From Parafrankia discariae (lineage in GTDB: Bacteria > Actinomycetota > Actinomycetes > Frankiales > Frankiaceae): 64,000 nt of DNA. A program made the translations under genes and the position numbers. Location: NCBI RefSeq assembly GCF_000373365.1, contig NZ_KB891104.1:77538-141537 (forward strand), written 5' to 3'. The notes beneath the pieces were generated by a model. That model did no database searches. It was not told the DNA's origin and saw nothing but the letters and a program-made list of their open reading frames with translations. This document shows positions 22,613-33,561 of this stretch, one piece after another; position 1 is the first letter of the stretch; every line of letters starts with the position of its first letter.

Positions 22613-25132
22613 TCAGGGTGCTTGCGGGCGGAGCCTGCCGTCGTCGCAACGCGTGCTCGCCGCCGCCGGGACCCGCGGGTCCGGGATGGCGCAGCGCAGG
22701 GTGGTGACCGCGCGCGACGGCTCCGCGGAGAGCTCGTAGACCGCCATCAGCTTCCCGGTCGGATCCAGGCCGCCGCCCTGGTCGGGCACGTCGAGCGCGC
22801 GGTCGGGCACGCCGGCGTGCAGGGGCCCGGTGACTCCCACGAAGCCGCTCCGGCCCTGGTAGACCTCGCGGAGCGCGACGTAGAGGTCGAAACCGTCGAA
22901 ACCGAGGACCGGCCGGCGGCGCGCGGTCTCCCGGACGGCGTCAGCCCGCTCCAGCAGCTCGCGGCAGCCGGCCAGGGCCGGTTCCCGCCGGCACGACTCG
23001 GCGCGCAGCCCGACCTGCCCGGCGAGCGTGACGGCGTCGTACAGGGCCCAGGCGGCAGAGTCGGGGAACTCCGCGAACCTGGGCCGGTCCTCCTCCGGGA
23101 GCTGGTCCCGGACCCTGCGGAACTCGCTCACGGCCGGGCCGAAGTCGGCGATGAGACCGTTGTCGAACAGTGTCCGCGCCGAACTCGGGTCCTCCGGGCC
23201 AAAAGCCGAGAACAGGAGCTTCGGCCGGGTGGCCGGGTCTTTCTCGAGAATTTCCTGGACGGTCTCCCAGGCGTCTCCGTCACGCAGGTCGGAAAGCGCG
23301 TCCCCGCCCAGCACGTGGATGTTGCTCCGGCACTTCGCGGGCAGGGTCATGAGCAGGGTGAGCAGCTCGGGGAGCTCGGCCGTCCGCCCGGCGTAGATGA
23401 TGAGCCGGGGTGCGTCGGTCACCTCGACCCCGGCTATCTCGGGATTGTCCCCGCAGATTCTGGCCTGCGGGTCGGCGAGCGCCTGGCCCAGCGGTCTCGG
23501 GGTGTCGGGGTCCGTCGAGTAGGTGATCACGCGCTGGTCGAGCAGGGTCTCGAAAGCGGTGCCGCTGAACCTGGACTCGTACTCGGGGCTGGTCAGCTTG
23601 CCGGTGTAGGCGTCGAGCATGCTGCGGCCCCAGCGGTCCGCCTCGTCGTAGACGATGAACGGCACGACCTGGTCGAGCTGGCCCCGCGGCGCCCAGGACA
23701 GGCCCATCTCGGCCTGCCGGTCGTCGGATCCGCCGATTCGGAAGTAGCCGGGTTCCCCGGTGAGGTCCGTCCCTGACTGGGTGGCCGCGATCATCGGCAC
23801 GCCGGAGAAGGCACTCGTGTTGCCGGCGAGCTCCGTCTGGCCGATATCGTTGATCATTTTCTCCGAGTCGTCCCGGGTCTGGCCGAGCCCCACGACGATC
23901 ACCGGTCCGGCGTTCCTGGTCGCCTCGCGGATCCTGTCCCCGGCCTGGGCGGCGAACTCCGCGTCCCCGCCGAGGTTCGCGGCCCACACCCGCATCCGGG
24001 GGCCGTCGGGGTGCGTGGCGTTGAACCGACGCATCGCGGTCAGCGCGGTGAGCAGTTCGACGTTGTCGAGCCCGTCGGTCTCCTCCCCGGAGCTCAGGTG
24101 GCCGGCCAGCACGACGGTCAGCCGGCCGGTCGGCGTGCCGTGCTCGCGGTCGGCCCGCTCGTTCTCGGCCACGACCTCCCGCCAGGCCGCCTCGACGCTC
24201 CGCTCGACGGCGCTGGGCACCGCCGCGCCCACCGGCCCGCCCGCCAGCGGGCCCGTGCCCGCCGGCGCGCCGACACCGGAGTTCGGGTCGGCGACGGCGA
24301 AGGCCCCGGCCGCGTCCGTCCGGACCCCGACGCACTGCAGCTTCCCCGGGATGGCCGCGGTCTGACGCGACCGCATCGCCTCCAGCGCCGCCGTGCCGCA
24401 GGGGCCGCCGGTGTCCGGGCCGGCGGCGGTGCCGCCCCCGTCGCCGGCTCCGAGGATGTTCCAGAGCCCGAACGCGACCAGGACCGCCAGGACGGTGGTC
24501 GTCGCGACGAGGGTCGTCCGCACCCGGCCGCGGCGGTGGGTCAGGAGGGACACCGACGCCGCCACCCGGCGCCCGAGGGTCGGCGGCGGGGGCAGCCGGT
24601 CCGCCATGACCTGCGCCAGGCGGCCGACCTCCCGCACGTACGTCCCGCTGCTCGGGCGCAGGGCGCTCAGGGGCCGGGATCCGTGGTGCTGACGATCGCG
24701 CAGTACCCGGAGCATGGCGGCACGCCGGTCGTCGCCGCTTTCCTCGGCGGCGGCGAGCAGCCCGGCCAGGTCCATCTCGGACCAGTAGATCGGGATTATC
24801 CGGCGGCGCACACCGTGCCTGGACTGCTCGGCGCGTTCCAGCGCCAGGAACTGGGTGAACTCGCGGAGGCACTCGTCGCTGGCCGCGAAGGCGGGGGACA
24901 CCACCGGCAGCAGGAACAGGACCTTGCCCAGCCCGGTCTCGAGCGTGGGCCGCCAGACGTCACCCGCGACGATGTCGCTGCGATCCTGAAAGATCTTGAT
25001 GTCCCGCCCGGAGCGTTCGCAGAGCTCGTGCTCCAGATCCGCCCTGAGCCTCGTGAGACGGCCACGACCCGTGTCGTCCTTGTGCGCATAGCTCAGGAAG
25101 GCGACCGGCTCCACCATGGCCCGCGGCGCCAT
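22613..25132 (-). CDS. Transmembrane TIR-domain receptor with extracytoplasmic type-1 periplasmic-binding domain
   Basis: An 839-residue protein. Residues 7-180 form a TIR-like domain: VAFLSYAHKDD (box 1), IKIFQDRSDIVAGDVW, VLFLLPVVSPAFAASDECLREF. Glu91 in the last motif occupies the place of the NADase glutamate in catalytic TIRs. A basic stretch (THRRGRVRTT) precedes one membrane helix at about 206-228, giving N-inside topology. The outer 610 residues resemble type-1 PBPs: TVVLAGHLSSG, AGPVIVVGLGQTRDD, VPMIAATQSGTDLT, YFRIGGSDDRQAEMG and a receptor-like tail. The start is ATG 25132 with GGGGGGAG 6 nt upstream. The Ser/Thr kinase gene lies 202 bp upstream on the same strand. Ligand-triggered NAD cleavage or TIR scaffolding is inference. 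Confidence 0.82.
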   Translation of the reverse strand: MAPRAMVEPVAFLSYAHKDDTGRGRLTRLRADLEHELCERSGRDIKIFQDRSDIVAGDVWRPTLETGLGKVLFLLPVVSPAFAASDECLREFTQFLALERAEQSRHGVRRRIIPIYWSEMDLAGLLAAAEESGDDRRAAMLRVLRDRQHHGSRPLSALRPSSGTYVREVGRLAQVMADRLPPPPTLGRRVAASVSLLTHRRGRVRTTLVATTTVLAVLVAFGLWNILGAGDGGGTAAGPDTGGPCGTAALEAMRSRQTAAIPGKLQCVGVRTDAAGAFAVADPNSGVGAPAGTGPLAGGPVGAAVPSAVERSVEAAWREVVAENERADREHGTPTGRLTVVLAGHLSSGEETDGLDNVELLTALTAMRRFNATHPDGPRMRVWAANLGGDAEFAAQAGDRIREATRNAGPVIVVGLGQTRDDSEKMINDIGQTELAGNTSAFSGVPMIAATQSGTDLTGEPGYFRIGGSDDRQAEMGLSWAPRGQLDQVVPFIVYDEADRWGRSMLDAYTGKLTSPEYESRFSGTAFETLLDQRVITYSTDPDTPRPLGQALADPQARICGDNPEIAGVEVTDAPRLIIYAGRTAELPELLTLLMTLPAKCRSNIHVLGGDALSDLRDGDAWETVQEILEKDPATRPKLLFSAFGPEDPSSARTLFDNGLIADFGPAVSEFRRVRDQLPEEDRPRFAEFPDSAAWALYDAVTLAGQVGLRAESCRREPALAGCRELLERADAVRETARRRPVLGFDGFDLYVALREVYQGRSGFVGVTGPLHAGVPDRALDVPDQGGGLDPTGKLMAVYELSAEPSRAVTTLRCAIPDPRVPAAASTRCDDGRLRPQAP

Positions 25133-25334
25133 TCACGACTCCCCCCTCGTGCGAACACGTCAGTATCACCTGCTCGCGCACAGTGGGGGAATAACCGGTG
25201 CCGTTTCACGCCGGCAGAACAGGCAGCGCACGGAGCGACGCCGACATCTGGCGGAACTCGCCGGGGCCGGCACTGCCCCCTGGTATGGGGAAACGATTTG
25301 TCATGCCGGCGGCCGGCCGGTGGACACGGCCGGG

Positions 25335-26969
<1,635 letters not shown>

Positions 26970-27892: not shown

Positions 27893-28007
27893 GCGGCCCA
27901 TGCCGCCGGCGCTGGCCACCTCGGCGGCGCGACGTCCCAGGTAACGTCAGTTGACCGACATCGCAGGTCTCATAACCTGTCGCCGGAAAGCACCGTACGA
28001 TCCCGGC

Positions 28008-29300
28008 GTGTCGGTTTCGCCTCCCGCCGCGCCGCGAGGCCGCGCAGACGACGGGTCCCCCGCCTCCCCCGCGCCGGCCCCGCCCGGGGCTGCCCCACCT
28101 GTCGCACCGGCCGCCGCGCGGCCGGTCTCGCTCACGCACGCCCGGCTGCCGCTGCTGTTCTCCGCCGTCGGGCTGGAGAGCACGACGGCGGTGGTCGCAC
28201 CGTTCATCGCCGGCACGCTGGGGGCCGCGCCGATCGCGCTCGCCGGGATCGAGGCGGCGGGGCGGGCCGGCGGCAGCGCGGCCCGGGCCGGGGCGACGAA
28301 GCTCGCCGACCGCCGGCCCGGCCTGCGCGGGCCGTTCACCGTCGCCGGGAACACCGGGCTGGCGCTGGCCGCCGCCTTCCTGGCCGGCAGCAACGCCGTC
28401 TGGCAGGCCGGGGCGTGCCGGTCGGGGTCTTGGGTGGCGCGCGGGGTGGGCACCCCGCCGCTGCTGGAGGTGGCGAGCGCGACCGGCACGCCGAGCGAGC
28501 TGGGCGCCCGGCTCGGCCTCGAACGCTCCGTGGGGGCCCTCGGCGCCGCCTTCGGCGCGCTCGCGGCGGCGCTGCTGCTGGCGTTCGTCGAGGTGCGGAC
28601 GGTGATCCTGCTCGCGCTGGTCCCGGTGGTCGCCGCAGTCGCCGTGAGCACGCACGGCACCCTGCGCGGGCGGGACGCGCTCGACCACGGCGTCCCGACC
28701 CAGGCCCGGCCCGAGCTCTCGCTGCTGCGCCAGCCGCCGCTGCGCCGGCTCGCCCTGGGCATCGCCTGCTACGAGGCGTCCAACATCGCGGCCGTGCTCC
28801 TGCTGCTGCGGGCCAGCAAGCTGCTGCCCGACGGCACCGGACGGCTCAGCCAGCTGCAGGCGGTCGCCGTGCTCTACGGCGTGTTCCATCTGTCCTCGGC
28901 CGCCGCGGCGGTGTGGGGCGGCCGGCTCGCCGACCGGTTCGGGGCCGGCCGGGTGATCGCCACCGGCGCGGCCTTCCTGCTCGGCGCGTACGCGGGTTTC
29001 GCCTTCGCCGGCGAGGGTGACCTGACCGCGATGACCGTCTGTTTCCTGCTCGCCGGCACGGCGGCGGGCGCGGTCGACGCGGCCGAGTACACCGGCGCCG
29101 GGCGGCTCACCCCGCCGGAGACGCACCGGGCCGTGTTCGGCGCGCTGTCCGGGCTGCAGAGCGCCGGCCGGGTCGTCGCGACGATCACCGCCGGCGGGCT
29201 GTGGACCCTGGTCGGGCCCGAGGCCGGGCTGCTGGTCTGCGGCCCGCTGCTCGTCCTGTGCGTCGCGCTGTTCACCAGGGGCACCGACCGCCCGCGCTGA
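28008..29300 (+). CDS. MFS transporter
   Basis: A 430-residue polytopic protein of about 12 helices after a Pro/Ala-rich, disordered N-terminus of about 40 residues. RVGTPPLLEVASATG-like and RLGLERSVGALGAAFG segments, ACYEASNIAAVLLLLRASKL at the start of the second half and WGGRLADRFGAGRV (motif A of the second bundle) support the major facilitator superfamily. The first-bundle motif A is degenerate. Substrate is unknown. GTG 28008 lies 7 nt after TACGAT (27996-28001), a -10-like hexamer, and has no Shine-Dalgarno sequence, so it may be leaderless; a longer start at TTG 27951 is possible. Confidence 0.8.
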   Translation: MSVSPPAAPRGRADDGSPASPAPAPPGAAPPVAPAAARPVSLTHARLPLLFSAVGLESTTAVVAPFIAGTLGAAPIALAGIEAAGRAGGSAARAGATKLADRRPGLRGPFTVAGNTGLALAAAFLAGSNAVWQAGACRSGSWVARGVGTPPLLEVASATGTPSELGARLGLERSVGALGAAFGALAAALLLAFVEVRTVILLALVPVVAAVAVSTHGTLRGRDALDHGVPTQARPELSLLRQPPLRRLALGIACYEASNIAAVLLLLRASKLLPDGTGRLSQLQAVAVLYGVFHLSSAAAAVWGGRLADRFGAGRVIATGAAFLLGAYAGFAFAGEGDLTAMTVCFLLAGTAAGAVDAAEYTGAGRLTPPETHRAVFGALSGLQSAGRVVATITAGGLWTLVGPEAGLLVCGPLLVLCVALFTRGTDRPR

Positions 29301-29320
29301 CTGACTGCCGCGGGGACGGC

Positions 29321-29356
29321 CGGTCTTCAGAGCAGGGCCGGTCTTCAGAGCAGGGC
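29321..29356. repeat. Exact 18-bp tandem duplication over a gene end
   Basis: CGGTCTTCAGAGCAGGGC occurs at 29321-29338 and again at 29339-29356. The right copy carries the stop codon (29345-29347) of the leftward FAD monooxygenase, so the left copy is a duplicate of the gene's last codons and stop. Confidence 0.9.
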
Positions 29357-30541
29357 CGAGAGCGGGTCGCGCCCGGGGGACGGCTCGTCCCAGGCGATCC
29401 GGTAGTCGTACACGGCGGCCATCTGGCGCAGGCCGACCTTCATCGCCACCGGGACGATGTGGTCCCGCATCCAGCGGGCGGGGGCGTTCGGCGGCGGGGT
29501 GCGCGGCCGGTTGCGCCGGGCCAGCCGGTGGACGTGCGCCACCCGCTCCGCGCGGGCCGCCCGGTAGGCGGCGAAGCCGATCGGGGCCGTCGGGGCGTCG
29601 CGCAGGCAGCGGCCGAGCACGATCGCGTCCTCGATCGCCATGGACGCCCCCTGGCCGGCGTGCGGGAGCATCGCGTGGGCGGCGTCCCCGAGCAGGCAGA
29701 CGTTGCGCCGGTACCAGGTCCCGGCCGGCTCCAGGACGGACAGCGGGAGCCGTTCGAGCCGGTCGGTGGCGTCCACGACCGCTCGCAGGTGGGCGGGGGC
29801 CCGCTCCAGCCGGGTGAGCAGCCGGCGGCGCACCTGTTCCTGGCCGGCGGCGGTGCGCGGGGAGGGCCACGGGTCGGCGGACACCATCGACATCGCCCAC
29901 ATCACCTCGCCGCCCGGCGTGCCGTAGTGGATGAACGTCCCGGTGCCGACGACGGTGAACTCGAGCATGCCGGTCTTGTACAAGCGGCCGGCCCGGTCCG
30001 CGAACCCGCCGACGGTCACCAGGCCGGCGAAGGTCGGCCAGGGCGTCCCGGGCGCGACGTGGCGGCGCACCCGGGAGCGCAGGCCGTCGCAACCGAGCAG
30101 GAAGTCGCCCGCGGCGCTGGAGCCGTCGGCGAAGTAGGCGCGGACGCCGGCCTCACCCCGGTCGTCCACCGAGTCGAACCGGCGGCCCGGGACGACCGGG
30201 ATCCCGCGCCGGTCGAGCTCGCGCAGCAGCACCTGGCGCAGTTCGCTGCGCCGGATCACCCGGGAGGGTGCCTCGATCGTGCCGAGGTGACGGCCGTGGG
30301 CGTCGACGAAGTGGTTTCCCGCCGAGGGGTGCCCGGCCTCGTCGAGGCCCTGGATGTCGAGGAGCTCCAGGCCGCGTAAGCCGTTCGGGGCGATGCCGAG
30401 CAGCAGGCCGGCGGCGGCCTCGGGATCGGGGTCGGCCTCGAAGACCGTGGGACGGATGCCGGACCGGGCCAGCGCGATCGCCGCCGCGGGTCCCGCGATG
30501 CCCCCACCGATCACCAGCGCCCGCCGACCAGCCATCCCCAT
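29345..30541 (-). CDS. FAD-dependent monooxygenase (class A flavoprotein hydroxylase type)
   Basis: A 398-residue flavoprotein of the PHBH/UbiH group. The Rossmann motif ALVIGGGIAGPAAAIALARSG binds the ADP part of FAD, LLGCDGLRSRVRR holds the DG motif, and CLLGDAAHAMLPHAGQGAS is the second FAD motif. Such enzymes use NADPH and oxygen to hydroxylate aromatic or polyketide substrates, or oxidise other small molecules. No partner gene indicates the substrate. Start ATG 30541 gives MGMAGRRALVIGG; ATG 30535 is also possible. The stop codon lies inside an 18-bp tandem duplication. It is transcribed towards the MFS gene, with 44 bp between their ends. Confidence 0.9.
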   Translation of the reverse strand: MGMAGRRALVIGGGIAGPAAAIALARSGIRPTVFEADPDPEAAAGLLLGIAPNGLRGLELLDIQGLDEAGHPSAGNHFVDAHGRHLGTIEAPSRVIRRSELRQVLLRELDRRGIPVVPGRRFDSVDDRGEAGVRAYFADGSSAAGDFLLGCDGLRSRVRRHVAPGTPWPTFAGLVTVGGFADRAGRLYKTGMLEFTVVGTGTFIHYGTPGGEVMWAMSMVSADPWPSPRTAAGQEQVRRRLLTRLERAPAHLRAVVDATDRLERLPLSVLEPAGTWYRRNVCLLGDAAHAMLPHAGQGASMAIEDAIVLGRCLRDAPTAPIGFAAYRAARAERVAHVHRLARRNRPRTPPPNAPARWMRDHIVPVAMKVGLRQMAAVYDYRIAWDEPSPGRDPLSALL

Positions 30542-31040: not shown

Positions 31041-32717
31041 TCAGCTCCATCCGCGCCACGACGGCGCGCGGGTGAGCGTCGGCCCCGGCACCGATGGCGC
31101 CGGCAGCGGCCGCCGGGTCGGCAGGACCGGCCCCGACCCGTAGGCCGAACGGGTCGCGGGCGCGGCGGGCACCGTCCCGGGCCGGTTCAGCAGGCTCGCC
31201 GCCTGGCGTTCGGTGAGCACCCGCAGCAGGCTGCCCCGGCGCAGCTCGATCCGGGGCGCGGGCGGCCGCCCGGCGTTGGACGCGTTGGGCCGGCTGGACC
31301 AGCTGGGCCCGGTCGGCCGGACGGCCCGCGCCGGCGACGTCGTGGTGGGCGCCGGCGACAGGCTCCCCCGGTCGTCCACGGCCAGCTGCCCGATCACCCG
31401 TACCCAGGTGCCCTCGAGCCGCGCCGGGTCGCCGTGGGTCGCGATGAGCTCCCGGCTGACCCGGTCCCACCCGACGACGCTGAAGCCGCCGCCGCGGTCG
31501 TCCCCGAACTCCAGGACGGTGATCAGGCCGGTCCGTTCCAGCTGACGGACCCGGACGACCCGGCCGACGACGGTGGTCTCCTCACCGCGGCGGGCGAGCA
31601 GGCCCGCCCGGTCGAGCGCGGAGAGCACCCCGGGCCCGCCGACGGGCAGCGGGGCCGGGCGCAGCGGCCGGGTACGCAGGTACCGTGCCGCGCTCACGGT
31701 GCTGACCACGCCGACCACACCGGCCACACCGGCCGGGGCGGCAGGGACGGCCACCCCGGCCGGGCGCGGTTGCCGGGCCAGCGCCCTGGGCCCGCCCACC
31801 GGCACCGGGCCGGCGCCCGCCGGGCCCGACCGATACGGGGCGAGCGCGTCGGCGTCCAGCACCGCCGGCACGTCCTGGAAGTCGACCAGGCAGGCGTCCC
31901 GCAGCCGGCGCGCGGTGGCCGCGACCCCGGGCATCCGCTCGAGGCGGGCGAACAGCGCCGAGGCCGACGGATCGGCGAAGTCGGCCGCCGAGAAGATCAG
32001 GTTCTCGCCGGTGTTGAACTCACGCCACAGGCCCGGATTCCGGGCCAGGGCGGCCAGCGACACCGTGATCACTTCCTCGGCGAAGCGGTCGAGGGTGACG
32101 TCGTACTGGTTCGAGCGGTCCGGATGCTGGTAGTTGCGGTGGCCCCGCTCGGAGGCGCCGAGCCCGCCGAGCCCCGGCAGGTACATCCCGTCGTAGTCGA
32201 CGAGCCGCACGGACGTGTCCGGCAGCACCAGGATGTTGCCGTGCTGCAGGTCGCCGTGCGCGGCACCGCGGCGGCGCAGCTCGGCGACGGCGTAGCCCAG
32301 GCCGAGCCGGACCCGGTCGAGGCGCGCCGGCCGGTCCAGGTTCTCCTGGACCCAGTCGTCGAGCCGCGCGCCGTCGATCCACTCCATCCGCACGATCGGC
32401 CAGCAGTGGCCGCGCACCCGGATCCCGGCCGGCTGGTAGTCCACGCCGACCAGGAAGTCCAGCGCGGCCGAGCGGACGAACTCGGCGATGCACGCGTAGC
32501 GCAGCTCCAGGTTGTCGCTGTGCCGGTGGAAGCAGCGCACGGCGTGGCGCCGGCCGTCCAGGCTGACGTCGAAGGTCAGGGCGAACCCGCCGGTGGCGAC
32601 CGCCGGCATGCCCAGCGGGGTCAGCCGCGGCACGCTCGCGCGCAGCCGGTCGTCCAGGAACGCCAGCCGCGGGACCTGGACGGCCTGCTGGTAGTCGAGC
32701 AGGGTCGGCAGCTTCAA
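31041..32717 (-). CDS. TerY-P-type protein kinase with C-terminal OB fold
   Basis: A 558-residue cytoplasmic protein. The N-terminal half is an atypical kinase domain: RHAVRCFHR (Arg61 where most kinases have Lys), GAAHGDLQHGNILVLPD (catalytic loop, HGD in place of HRD, Asp156, Asn161) and LVDYDGMYLPGL (metal-binding DYD in place of DFG). These are the signatures of YegI/TerY-P kinases. After a Pro/Ala linker, TTVVGRVVRVRQLERTGLI ... WVRVIGQLAVDDRG forms an OB-fold-like domain, suggesting nucleic-acid contact. TTG 32717 is the start: the PP2C stop is 1 nt away and GAGGG precedes it. It is last in the zinc ribbon-VWA-PP2C-kinase set. Confidence 0.8.
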   Translation of the reverse strand: MKLPTLLDYQQAVQVPRLAFLDDRLRASVPRLTPLGMPAVATGGFALTFDVSLDGRRHAVRCFHRHSDNLELRYACIAEFVRSAALDFLVGVDYQPAGIRVRGHCWPIVRMEWIDGARLDDWVQENLDRPARLDRVRLGLGYAVAELRRRGAAHGDLQHGNILVLPDTSVRLVDYDGMYLPGLGGLGASERGHRNYQHPDRSNQYDVTLDRFAEEVITVSLAALARNPGLWREFNTGENLIFSAADFADPSASALFARLERMPGVAATARRLRDACLVDFQDVPAVLDADALAPYRSGPAGAGPVPVGGPRALARQPRPAGVAVPAAPAGVAGVVGVVSTVSAARYLRTRPLRPAPLPVGGPGVLSALDRAGLLARRGEETTVVGRVVRVRQLERTGLITVLEFGDDRGGGFSVVGWDRVSRELIATHGDPARLEGTWVRVIGQLAVDDRGSLSPAPTTTSPARAVRPTGPSWSSRPNASNAGRPPAPRIELRRGSLLRVLTERQAASLLNRPGTVPAAPATRSAYGSGPVLPTRRPLPAPSVPGPTLTRAPSWRGWS

Positions 32718-32718
32718 T

Positions 32719-33561
32719 TCACACGCCCTCGGGCCGGCACGGGCCGTCGGCGCGGCCCGGCCCGCGTGGTGGCACCGCACGCACCACGCAGATCGTCGTG
32801 TCGTCGTTGGCGAGCAGCCCGTGATGCCGGTAGGCGGCGACGGCGCGGGAGAACCGGCCGGCGGTCCGCGCGAGCCGGTCGGGCGCCGGCATCCGGCCGC
32901 GGGTCTCGGTCGCGTACAGCAGGAGCCGGGCGAGCGCGTCGGTGGCGAGGACGAACACGTCGCCCGGCCGCAGCTCACCGGTGAGCAGGGTCGGTTCCGG
33001 GGCGGTCGGGCCGCGGCTGGCGACCAGCTGGGCGAACCGGGTGAAGTCGGCGGACCGTCCGACCGGGCCCACCGCGCGCGTCTCCCCGTCGCGCAGGTGG
33101 AACACGCACGAGTCACCGACGCACGTCGCGGTCCAGCACCGGTTCACGACGTCGACGGAAAGCCCGAGGAAAGAGGCGTCGGCGCCCGACTGCAGCTTCG
33201 CCCGCGCGAACCAGGGCAGCCCCGGCCGGCTCACCTGGGCCCGCCAGCGCTCACGCAGCGCGCCCAGGACGTCGGGCGCCAGCGGGTCGAGCCCGTCGTG
33301 GGCGTAGGCGTCGACCAGCAGCCGGCTCCACACCTCAGGGCGGGCCGAGGTCGACGCCCCGTCGGCGACGGCGAACCGGCCGCGCTCCGGACGCAGCGCG
33401 CAGCTGTCCTCGTTCTCCGCCGGCGACCGGCCGAGTTTCGGCACCGAGTGCGCGGTCGCCGCCAGGACGACCACTCCCGCGGACGGGCGCGGGGGGCTCG
33501 GAGGGCTCGGCGCGAGCGGCGGCACCGCCGGGGCGGTGGCGGTGGCGGGCAGCGGGGTCAT
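32719..33561 (-). CDS. PP2C-family protein phosphatase
   Basis: A 280-residue Mn/Mg-dependent Ser/Thr phosphatase. Metal-ligand motifs appear in order: ENEDSCAL, RFAVADGASTS, FVLATDALARL and ANDDTTICVV. An N-terminal Pro/Ala tail of about 25 residues precedes the fold. It has no membrane segment or sensor domain. ATG 33561 overlaps the VWA stop as ATGA, and its own stop lies 1 nt before the kinase start, so the three form a tight operon. In the TerY-P triad the phosphatase is expected to counter the kinase, with the VWA protein as target or scaffold; that relation is known from comparative genomics, not shown here. Confidence 0.9.
   Translation of the reverse strand: MTPLPATATAPAVPPLAPSPPSPPRPSAGVVVLAATAHSVPKLGRSPAENEDSCALRPERGRFAVADGASTSARPEVWSRLLVDAYAHDGLDPLAPDVLGALRERWRAQVSRPGLPWFARAKLQSGADASFLGLSVDVVNRCWTATCVGDSCVFHLRDGETRAVGPVGRSADFTRFAQLVASRGPTAPEPTLLTGELRPGDVFVLATDALARLLLYATETRGRMPAPDRLARTAGRFSRAVAAYRHHGLLANDDTTICVVRAVPPRGPGRADGPCRPEGV

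Follow-up and report, generated by a model that had tools for sequence, protein, structure and literature searches.

A 64,000-nucleotide stretch of the Parafrankia discariae genome (assembly GCF_000373365.1, contig NZ_KB891104.1, positions 77,538 to 141,537; hereafter the window) encodes a protein of 839 residues that almost certainly carries a Venus-flytrap sensor outside the cell, a single membrane helix and a TIR domain inside. The window sits on contig C3 of a 7.9-Mb genome, which we call G000. A first-pass annotation, made from the letters of the window, had read this protein as an inner TIR joined by one membrane pass to an outer solute-sensor fold and had paired it with a neighbouring Ser/Thr kinase. 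The three structural parts of that reading are upheld by Pfam, predicted models, structure matches and a count of positively charged residues around the helix, while the proposed kinase-receptor module does not survive the comparison of related genomes.

The inner part is recognized as a TIR domain from its sequence and from its predicted structure. Residues 12-119 score 34.7 bits with Pfam TIR_2 (E 2.9e-8; cut-off 28), and PF01582 TIR remains just below its cut-off (20.9 against 21.3 bits). The AlphaFold2 model of residues 1-204, calculated with 14 aligned TIRs (alignment A4), has a predicted local distance difference test (pLDDT) value of 82.0. Structure prediction followed by Foldseek, the check proposed in the first-pass annotation for both ends of the protein, here yielded a TIR fold: the structure matches listed include plant resistance proteins, AbTir, SARM1, SPARTA and Toll-like receptors, and the best hit of a second aligner is RPPT-TIR (Z 14.8, 148 residues, root-mean-square deviation (rmsd) 3.4). 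Box 1, SYAHKDD, and Glu91, within DECLREFTQF, lie exactly where that annotation had placed them. All 14 rows of A4 agree at eight residues (F12, S14, Y15, A16, W60, S85, E91 and P114). In a profile search of the PDB, flax L6 has its Glu (SKWCLMEL) in the column of Glu91, and the TIRs of four further receptors (L146, L137, L149 and L150) have E in this column, as judged by eye. A Glu at this position is catalytic in plant TIRs, and the title of one entry among the Foldseek matches of the model reads RUN1 E100A-NAD. A separate TIR protein of 2036 residues (L081:3115-9225, minus strand) combines a TIR 31% identical to that of the window with a NACHT-associated inactive endonuclease domain and WD40 repeats.

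The outer part of 610 residues was modelled from residues 229-839 together with 33 aligned ectodomains (alignment A3), with a pLDDT of 81.8 and a predicted template modelling (pTM) score of 0.89. As foreseen by the first-pass annotation, it adopts the fold of type-1 periplasmic-binding proteins (PBPs). The top Foldseek matches are ectodomains of metabotropic glutamate receptors (mGluRs; first E 1.3e-12), and Leu/Ile/Val-type binding proteins enter the list from rank 27. The second aligner puts the Leu/Ile/Val-type proteins first (Z 25.4, 342 residues, rmsd 3.3) and finds mGluRs and taste receptors at Z about 21-22. Matches to mGluRs begin closer to the membrane, at model residue 38-41 compared with about 100-110 for the binding proteins. 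At the level of sequence, the ectodomain profile finds 4n0q, a Leu/Ile/Val-binding protein homologue, with E 4.1e-13 and mGluR5 with E 1.3e-5. Profiles are needed for these matches, since sequence-only PDB searches with single proteins gave a best E of 0.29 for the window protein and nothing at E 0.001 for the ectodomain of L139. Pfam finds neither a PBP nor a leucine-rich-repeat family in the window receptor. The predicted structure and the profiles describe the ectodomain as a Venus flytrap of the amino-acid-binding type.

Between the two parts, hydropathy analysis detects one hydrophobic helix, whose best windows fall within residues 208-227. The 20 residues before it hold four lysines or arginines and the 20 after it none; eight of the ten cysteines of the receptor lie on the outer side. 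The same asymmetry is seen in the family: among 53 members with an inner part, the 20-residue flanks contain on average 4.1 lysines or arginines before the helix and 2.0 after it, with an excess before the helix in 45 members and equal numbers in six.

That this architecture is more than a chance arrangement is indicated by orthologues in two other genomes of the genus, at 83% identity in Parafrankia soli (G003) and 61% in G005, as found by same-genus genome searches. The TIR part (residues 1-204) is 86% and 68% identical in these two, the ectodomain 82% and 60%. The closest named relative found is P. soli NRRL B-16219, whose record and G003 are counted as one genome; it was the single relative among 50 stretches in a scan of named genomes that detects close relatives only. 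The gene is patchy, being full length in three of six same-genus genomes with G000 included. Whole-genome searches of G001, G002 and G004 (10 candidates scored per genome) gave no receptor match at E 1e-10; other flytrap-profile matches are present in all three. In addition, an ectodomain piece of 348 residues in G004 (L048:4762-5808, minus strand) is probably a decayed receptor gene. The window gene is unremarkable in composition, as its guanine-plus-cytosine content at third codon positions (93.0%) is close to that of the neighbouring kinase gene (93.4%) and of a nearby Cys/Met-metabolism gene (95.6%). A phage or plasmid origin was rejected: no phage match to the receptor was found, and the only plasmid match spans 14% of the protein and is limited to the TIR part.

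Which ligand might such a flytrap bind? For mGluR1, passages of two papers describe a glutamate site in which Ser165 contacts the carboxylate and Thr188, Asp208, Tyr236 and Asp318 contact the amine (PMC4026697, PMC2680970). The mGluR1 numbering was transferred through the alignment with mGluR5, where the spacing of GPGSSS, YSATS, VPSD and NYGE fits by count. Asp611 of the window receptor, aligned through 4n0q, we take to be the equivalent of Asp318. Compared with mGluR1, the window site has two identical residues (D and D) and three conservative replacements (T for S, S for T and W for Y). Across the 33 ectodomains, position 419 is S in 25, T in five, D in two and N in one; 453 is T in 19 and S in 14; 470 is N in 26 and D in seven; 501 is Y in 30 and W in three; 611 is D in 32 and N in one; and 583 is R in 32 and W in one. 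The alignments thus suggest that the chemistry of alpha-amino-acid binding is largely kept in the family. Because residues are kept at the amino-acid-binding positions of mGluR1, the ligand of the window flytrap is rather likely to be amino-acid-like. The positions of these and further features are collected in Table 1.

Table 1. Features of the receptor gene and of the adjacent kinase gene, in window positions.
Feature	Position	Strand	Basis
TIR-transmembrane-flytrap receptor gene	22613..25132	(-)	839 aa, ATG start; open reading frame call, orthologues, alignment A2
TIR domain, residues 8-180	24593..25111	(-)	TIR_2 match; model pLDDT 82.0; structure matches are TIR domains
TIR box 1 SYAHKDD, residues 14-20	25073..25093	(-)	S14, Y15, A16 invariant in 14/14 rows of A4
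Glu91, candidate catalytic residue	24860..24862	(-)	invariant in 14/14 rows of A4; aligned to flax L6 Glu
Single membrane helix, residues about 206-228, N-in/C-out	24449..24517	(-)	hydropathy and positive-inside count
C245...QC267VG juxtamembrane signature, possible disulfide	24332..24400	(-)	C245 in 31/33 (2 gaps), C267 in 32/33 rows of A3
Venus-flytrap (type-1 PBP) core, residues 334-813	22694..24133	(-)	span of the alignment with Leu/Ile/Val-type binding proteins (Z 25.4)
Thr419, position of mGluR1 Ser165 (carboxylate)	23876..23878	(-)	aligned to mGluR5 GPGSSS; S or T in 30/33
Ser453, position of mGluR1 Thr188	23774..23776	(-)	mGluR5 alignment; T or S in 33/33
Asp470, position of mGluR1 Asp208	23723..23725	(-)	mGluR5 alignment; N 26, D 7 of 33
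Trp501, position of mGluR1 Tyr236	23630..23632	(-)	mGluR5 alignment; Y 30, W 3 of 33
Cys560 and Cys601, possible second disulfide	23330..23455	(-)	each invariant in 33/33 rows
Asp611, acidic-residue position	23300..23302	(-)	aligned to E of 4n0q VLGGEG; D in 32/33
Neighbouring Ser/Thr kinase, judged not part of the receptor module	25335..26969	(-)	544 aa; Pfam Pkinase E 1.4e-34

The window receptor does not stand alone: in Frankiaceae the same ectodomain with its preceding helix is fused to various inner signalling domains. A search with the ectodomain profile through the class found matches in at least 34 of 393 genomes (E <= 1e-6, three candidates scored per genome), and in a draw from the phylum at least 8 of 396 genomes matched at E <= 1e-40 (three candidates scored), all of them in the window's own class. 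At the level of the order, 35 genomes gave 37 matches at E <= 1e-40 in 23 genomes, and all 37 were inspected. Their inner part is a TIR in five (the window receptor, L003, L004, L065 and L146), TIR-NB-ARC in one (L137), TIR-kinase in two (L149 and L150), a kinase in two (L140 and L154), EAD1 in five (L148, L151, two in L152, and L153), DUF4062 in six (L069 and L130-L134) and AAA_16 in one (L018, with a score exactly at the cut-off). Eight members have an unannotated, NTPase-like inner part (L067, L073, L135, L138, L142, L144, L145 and L147), three are short proteins with none (L136, L141 and L143), and four are not readable (L070 at a contig edge, L077 and L139 masked, L048 a fragment). These assignments come from Pfam for 25 of the 37; L003 and L004 were assigned by alignment with the window receptor, L132 and L133 by their place in the tree and a start motif that also occurs in DUF4062 members confirmed by Pfam, L073 and L145 by similarity, and the remaining members by length or left unassigned. 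The helix directly before the ectodomain is common to the family. TIR-bearing members have this one predicted helix, and several members with other inner parts show further hydrophobic segments there.

In 28 members, of which 20 lie outside Frankiaceae, the inner domain is unannotated, and by similarity these domains group into a single cluster. They are probably relatives of P-loop NTPases, since their profile matches L018 in its AAA_16 part (hhalign probability 98, E 3e-13, a rough value as it stems from a single pair). A phmmer search did not connect the L018 NTPase with these domains, and the pattern GxxxxGK[ST] occurs in none of the 28. Outside Frankiaceae, a motif like TIR box 1 was found in none of 23 loci by a pattern scan, with six of them given to Pfam. 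Several individual loci add to this picture. In L137 (1375-5025, minus strand) a TIR, an NB-ARC part, the helix and the flytrap follow one another, and the NB-ARC part passes the cut-off of the NCBIfam model for the FxSxx-COOH system TPR protein (370 against 300 bits). L152 (3141-8073, plus strand) holds a tandem pair of EAD1-helix-flytrap genes, and in the window's own genome a frame of 1103 residues (L155:2136-5447, minus strand; G000:C131) has two flytrap-profile matches.

How did this variety of inner domains arise? A maximum likelihood (ML) tree was calculated from 59 ectodomains, omitting the fragment L048 as well as matches weaker than E 1e-40 unless they came from the class-wide search; 44 of its 56 inner branches are starred. 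The eight TIR-bearing proteins fall at five places on this tree, and parsimony for TIR against not-TIR counts five changes, be they gains or losses. An approximately unbiased (AU) test, with groups picked by domain after inspection of the tree, rejects a single TIR clade (p 7e-69) and a single kinase clade (p 4e-48). The tree suggests that fusions of a flytrap-plus-helix chassis to TIR, kinase, EAD1, DUF4062 and NTPase domains arose repeatedly. On a wider scale, we tentatively suggest, short of holding it to be probable, that actinomycetes own a class of cell-surface receptors, similar in build to Toll-like and Venus kinase receptors, in which an amino-acid-sensing flytrap-plus-helix chassis has had its inner TIR, kinase, EAD1, DUF4062 or STAND-type NTPase swapped again and again, and which would turn an extracellular small molecule into immunity- or death-type signalling.

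For the window protein, the explanation that we favour as fairly probable is a stand-alone, single-pass flytrap-TIR receptor whose TIR output is switched by a ligand. TIR domains become active on self-association. An extracellular amino acid, or a derivative such as a small peptide, would close the flytrap, and closure would alter the packing of two receptors in a dimer or cluster, as it does in Venus kinase receptors; the TIRs on the inner side could then meet and self-associate. Once assembled, the TIR might cleave nicotinamide adenine dinucleotide (NAD+) via Glu91, giving a nucleotide signal or a loss of NAD+, or might on an alternative branch recruit soluble TIR proteins. Venus kinase receptors act as dimers, according to passages of PMC4026697, and by analogy the association of TIRs is probably the switch. 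Whether NAD+ cleavage is the output of the TIR appears evenly poised, with the enzymatic branch preferred because Glu91 is invariant.

Several observations weigh against this reading or parts of it. The first Foldseek superpositions are loose, with a TM-score on the query of 0.54 and an rmsd of 6.0 for the TIR model and 0.44 and 9.0 for the ectodomain, so that it is the second aligner and the profiles that carry the fold calls. Few ectodomains of the family have T at position 419 (5 of 33) or W at 501 (3 of 33), and the ligand may therefore be something other than a plain amino acid. No more than three members with the exact TIR type of the window receptor were found, and the TIRs nearest to it by sequence belong to soluble proteins. 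The ectodomain tree has several long end branches, one of them that of L018, whose grouping with the window clade may be an artefact. Finally, TIRs with a kept Glu are not necessarily NADases, and action as a scaffold alone fits the same data.

In a first alternative, which we judge somewhat unlikely, the TIR would be a scaffold rather than an enzyme, and receptor TIRs clustered by ligand binding would draw in soluble TIR proteins that the same genome encodes, much as MyD88 is recruited by Toll-like receptors. It overlaps with the recruitment branch of the favoured mechanism, and the two are not mutually exclusive. In its favour, a TIR protein without predicted helix is encoded in the window's own genome (G000:C110, L087), and a second genus of Frankiaceae has helix-less proteins whose TIRs are related at 39% identity (L078-L080); sister receptors moreover hold EAD1, a named effector-associated domain, in the same place. 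However, Glu91 is kept in every row of A4, a constraint that a pure scaffold would not need.

An anti-phage or neighbour-alarm receptor, with a flytrap that senses a molecule from dying neighbours and a TIR that leads to cell death or dormancy, is unlikely. EAD1 and STAND NTPases, as present in sister receptors, are named among the domains of actinobacterial conflict systems in passages of PMC7159879, and the TIR has a weak match to ThsB. The neighbouring kinase matches the PD-T4-6 kinase models of PADLOC (best E 3.3e-52) and mad6 (2e-42), yet such models catch kinases generally and the kinase is no fixed partner of the receptor. Nine of the ten other neighbour proteins are without a PADLOC match at E <= 1e-5, and the tenth, which matches STK_OB, is kept in G001, G002, G004 and G005 like the kinase. 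The absence of phage matches and the confinement of the single plasmid match to the TIR part argue in the same direction. The STK_OB gene itself (31041-33116, minus strand, 691 residues, E 1.1e-83) appears to be conserved across the genus and not to belong to a defence island, as judged from its retention in these four genomes.

The kinase raises a third possibility. As described in the first-pass annotation, it lies 202 bp from the receptor on the same strand. One hydrophobic stretch is predicted in it (residues 333-351). That annotation had named a conserved pairing of the two genes as a test of its own reading, and the pair was seen only in G000 and in P. soli, where the genes are adjacent in the same order as in the window. 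Orthologues of the kinase occur in five of five other same-genus genomes searched, at 85% identity in P. soli and at 74-81% over the matched part in G001, G002, G004 and G005. In G004 and G005 the kinase is separated from the Cys/Met-metabolism gene by 192 and 127 bp, leaving no room for a receptor, compared with the 2.76 kb that contain it in the window. The next genes differ in G002, with no receptor match within 7.7 kb downstream of the kinase, and the contig of G001 stops inside the kinase gene, so that the receptor site is beyond view. The receptor of G005 lies on another contig than the kinase, with no kinase in the 715 bp of upstream sequence covered. Four genomes have the kinase and, within the reach of their contigs, no adjoining receptor. 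The receptor is therefore a stand-alone gene that in two sister species was inserted, or retained, next to a kinase conserved across the genus. A conserved kinase-receptor pair is rejected in view of the empty sites in G004 and G005, the other neighbours in G002 and the separate contig in G005.

That the two adjacent genes nevertheless work together as a module is very unlikely. Their shared strand, the short gap and the pair kept in P. soli speak for it, as do single proteins of two Frankiaceae genomes (L149:2040-5537, plus strand; L150:1665-4601, minus strand) in which TIR, Ser/Thr kinase, helix and flytrap form one polypeptide, with a TIR that differs from that of the window. These TIR-fused kinases are, however, merely 36-39% identical to the neighbour kinase, kinase orthologues stand without an adjoining receptor in G002, G004 and G005, and G001, G002 and G004 have no receptor match. 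The surroundings hold another variable segment: major facilitator superfamily (MFS) and flavin adenine dinucleotide (FAD)-oxidase genes (27951-30541) are shared with P. soli, whereas the corresponding stretches retrieved from G001, G002, G004 and G005 gave no match to them at E 1e-15. By this comparison the segment is a second lineage-specific insert in the same gene block. Last among the alternatives, a nutrient-binding protein anchored by a degenerate relic TIR is hardly credible: the patchy gene and the fragment retained alone in G004 would suit it, but the TIR part is conserved at least as well as the ectodomain between orthologues, and the Pfam scan of seven window proteins contains no ABC-transporter family.

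How does the flytrap-TIR receptor compare with known systems? Passages of PMC7075850 describe Toll-like receptors as single-pass proteins with a ligand-binding domain outside and a TIR inside, which the window receptor shares. Their ectodomain consists of leucine-rich repeats, whereas the window receptor has a Venus flytrap, and the chain order is reversed, with the TIR N-terminal and the flytrap C-terminal here. The window receptor resembles a Toll-like receptor in working, yet in the absence of leucine-rich repeats it is not one. Venus kinase receptors of invertebrates likewise have a flytrap outside, one helix, an inner signalling domain and the amino-acid-binding positions, as far as described in passages of PMC2680970 and PMC4026697; they differ in being animal proteins with an inner tyrosine kinase in place of the TIR. 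Among bacteria, the caspase-TM-PBP proteins of conflict 'System 4' are actinobacterial and combine an inner death-type domain, transmembrane (TM) helices and an outer periplasmic-binding domain, a likeness by description; they contain a caspase and have an EACC1 partner gene (PMC7159879, passages on this system). Those passages hold no mention of a TIR-PBP protein, and the Pfam scan of seven window proteins, which included no search for the EACC1 partner, found no caspase family. In the GlnH-GlnX-PknG system of Actinobacteria an extracellular amino-acid binding protein governs an inner signalling protein, according to PMC6069109 and PMC9769921; it differs in consisting of three separate proteins, with four transmembrane segments in GlnX, a kinase as output and no TIR. 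Venus kinase receptors and caspase-TM-PBP proteins are closest to it in plan, and GlnH-GlnX-PknG in purpose.

Two identities suggested by profile matches of the TIR were rejected. The best NCBIfam match is FxsC of the FxSxx-COOH system (NF040588, E 3.9e-13, residues 10-174), at 49.7 bits against a cut-off of 130; its model spans 182 positions and covers the TIR-like domain only. A literature search on FxSxx-COOH gave nothing on the system among the matches listed. For Thoeris, the match to ThsB is weak (E 2.1e-4), no ThsA is among the PADLOC matches for the kinase and ten other neighbours, and the window protein differs from ThsB in its membrane receptor architecture. Among the literature matches listed, none describes a bacterial receptor that joins a TIR to an outer binding protein (TIR-TM-PBP), in a search with most subscription journals and all preprints outside its scope. 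TIR receptors and flytrap receptors are both known; their union in a modular bacterial family is not, as far as searched.

Bacterial TIR proteins are usually regarded as intracellular infection alarms. A TIR behind an extracellular sensor of the amino-acid type would, if true, be a real cell-surface receptor, with Toll-like logic and a flytrap as its sensor: its predicted ectodomain is shaped like the amino-acid sensor of the glutamate receptors of the brain, and its TIR resembles the TIRs found in immune receptors of animals and plants. The trigger of this bacterial TIR thereby becomes directly testable with free amino acids. One series of ligand-binding experiments could reveal the triggers of several orphan signalling domains together, since kinases, EAD1, NTPases and TIRs all occur behind this sensor.

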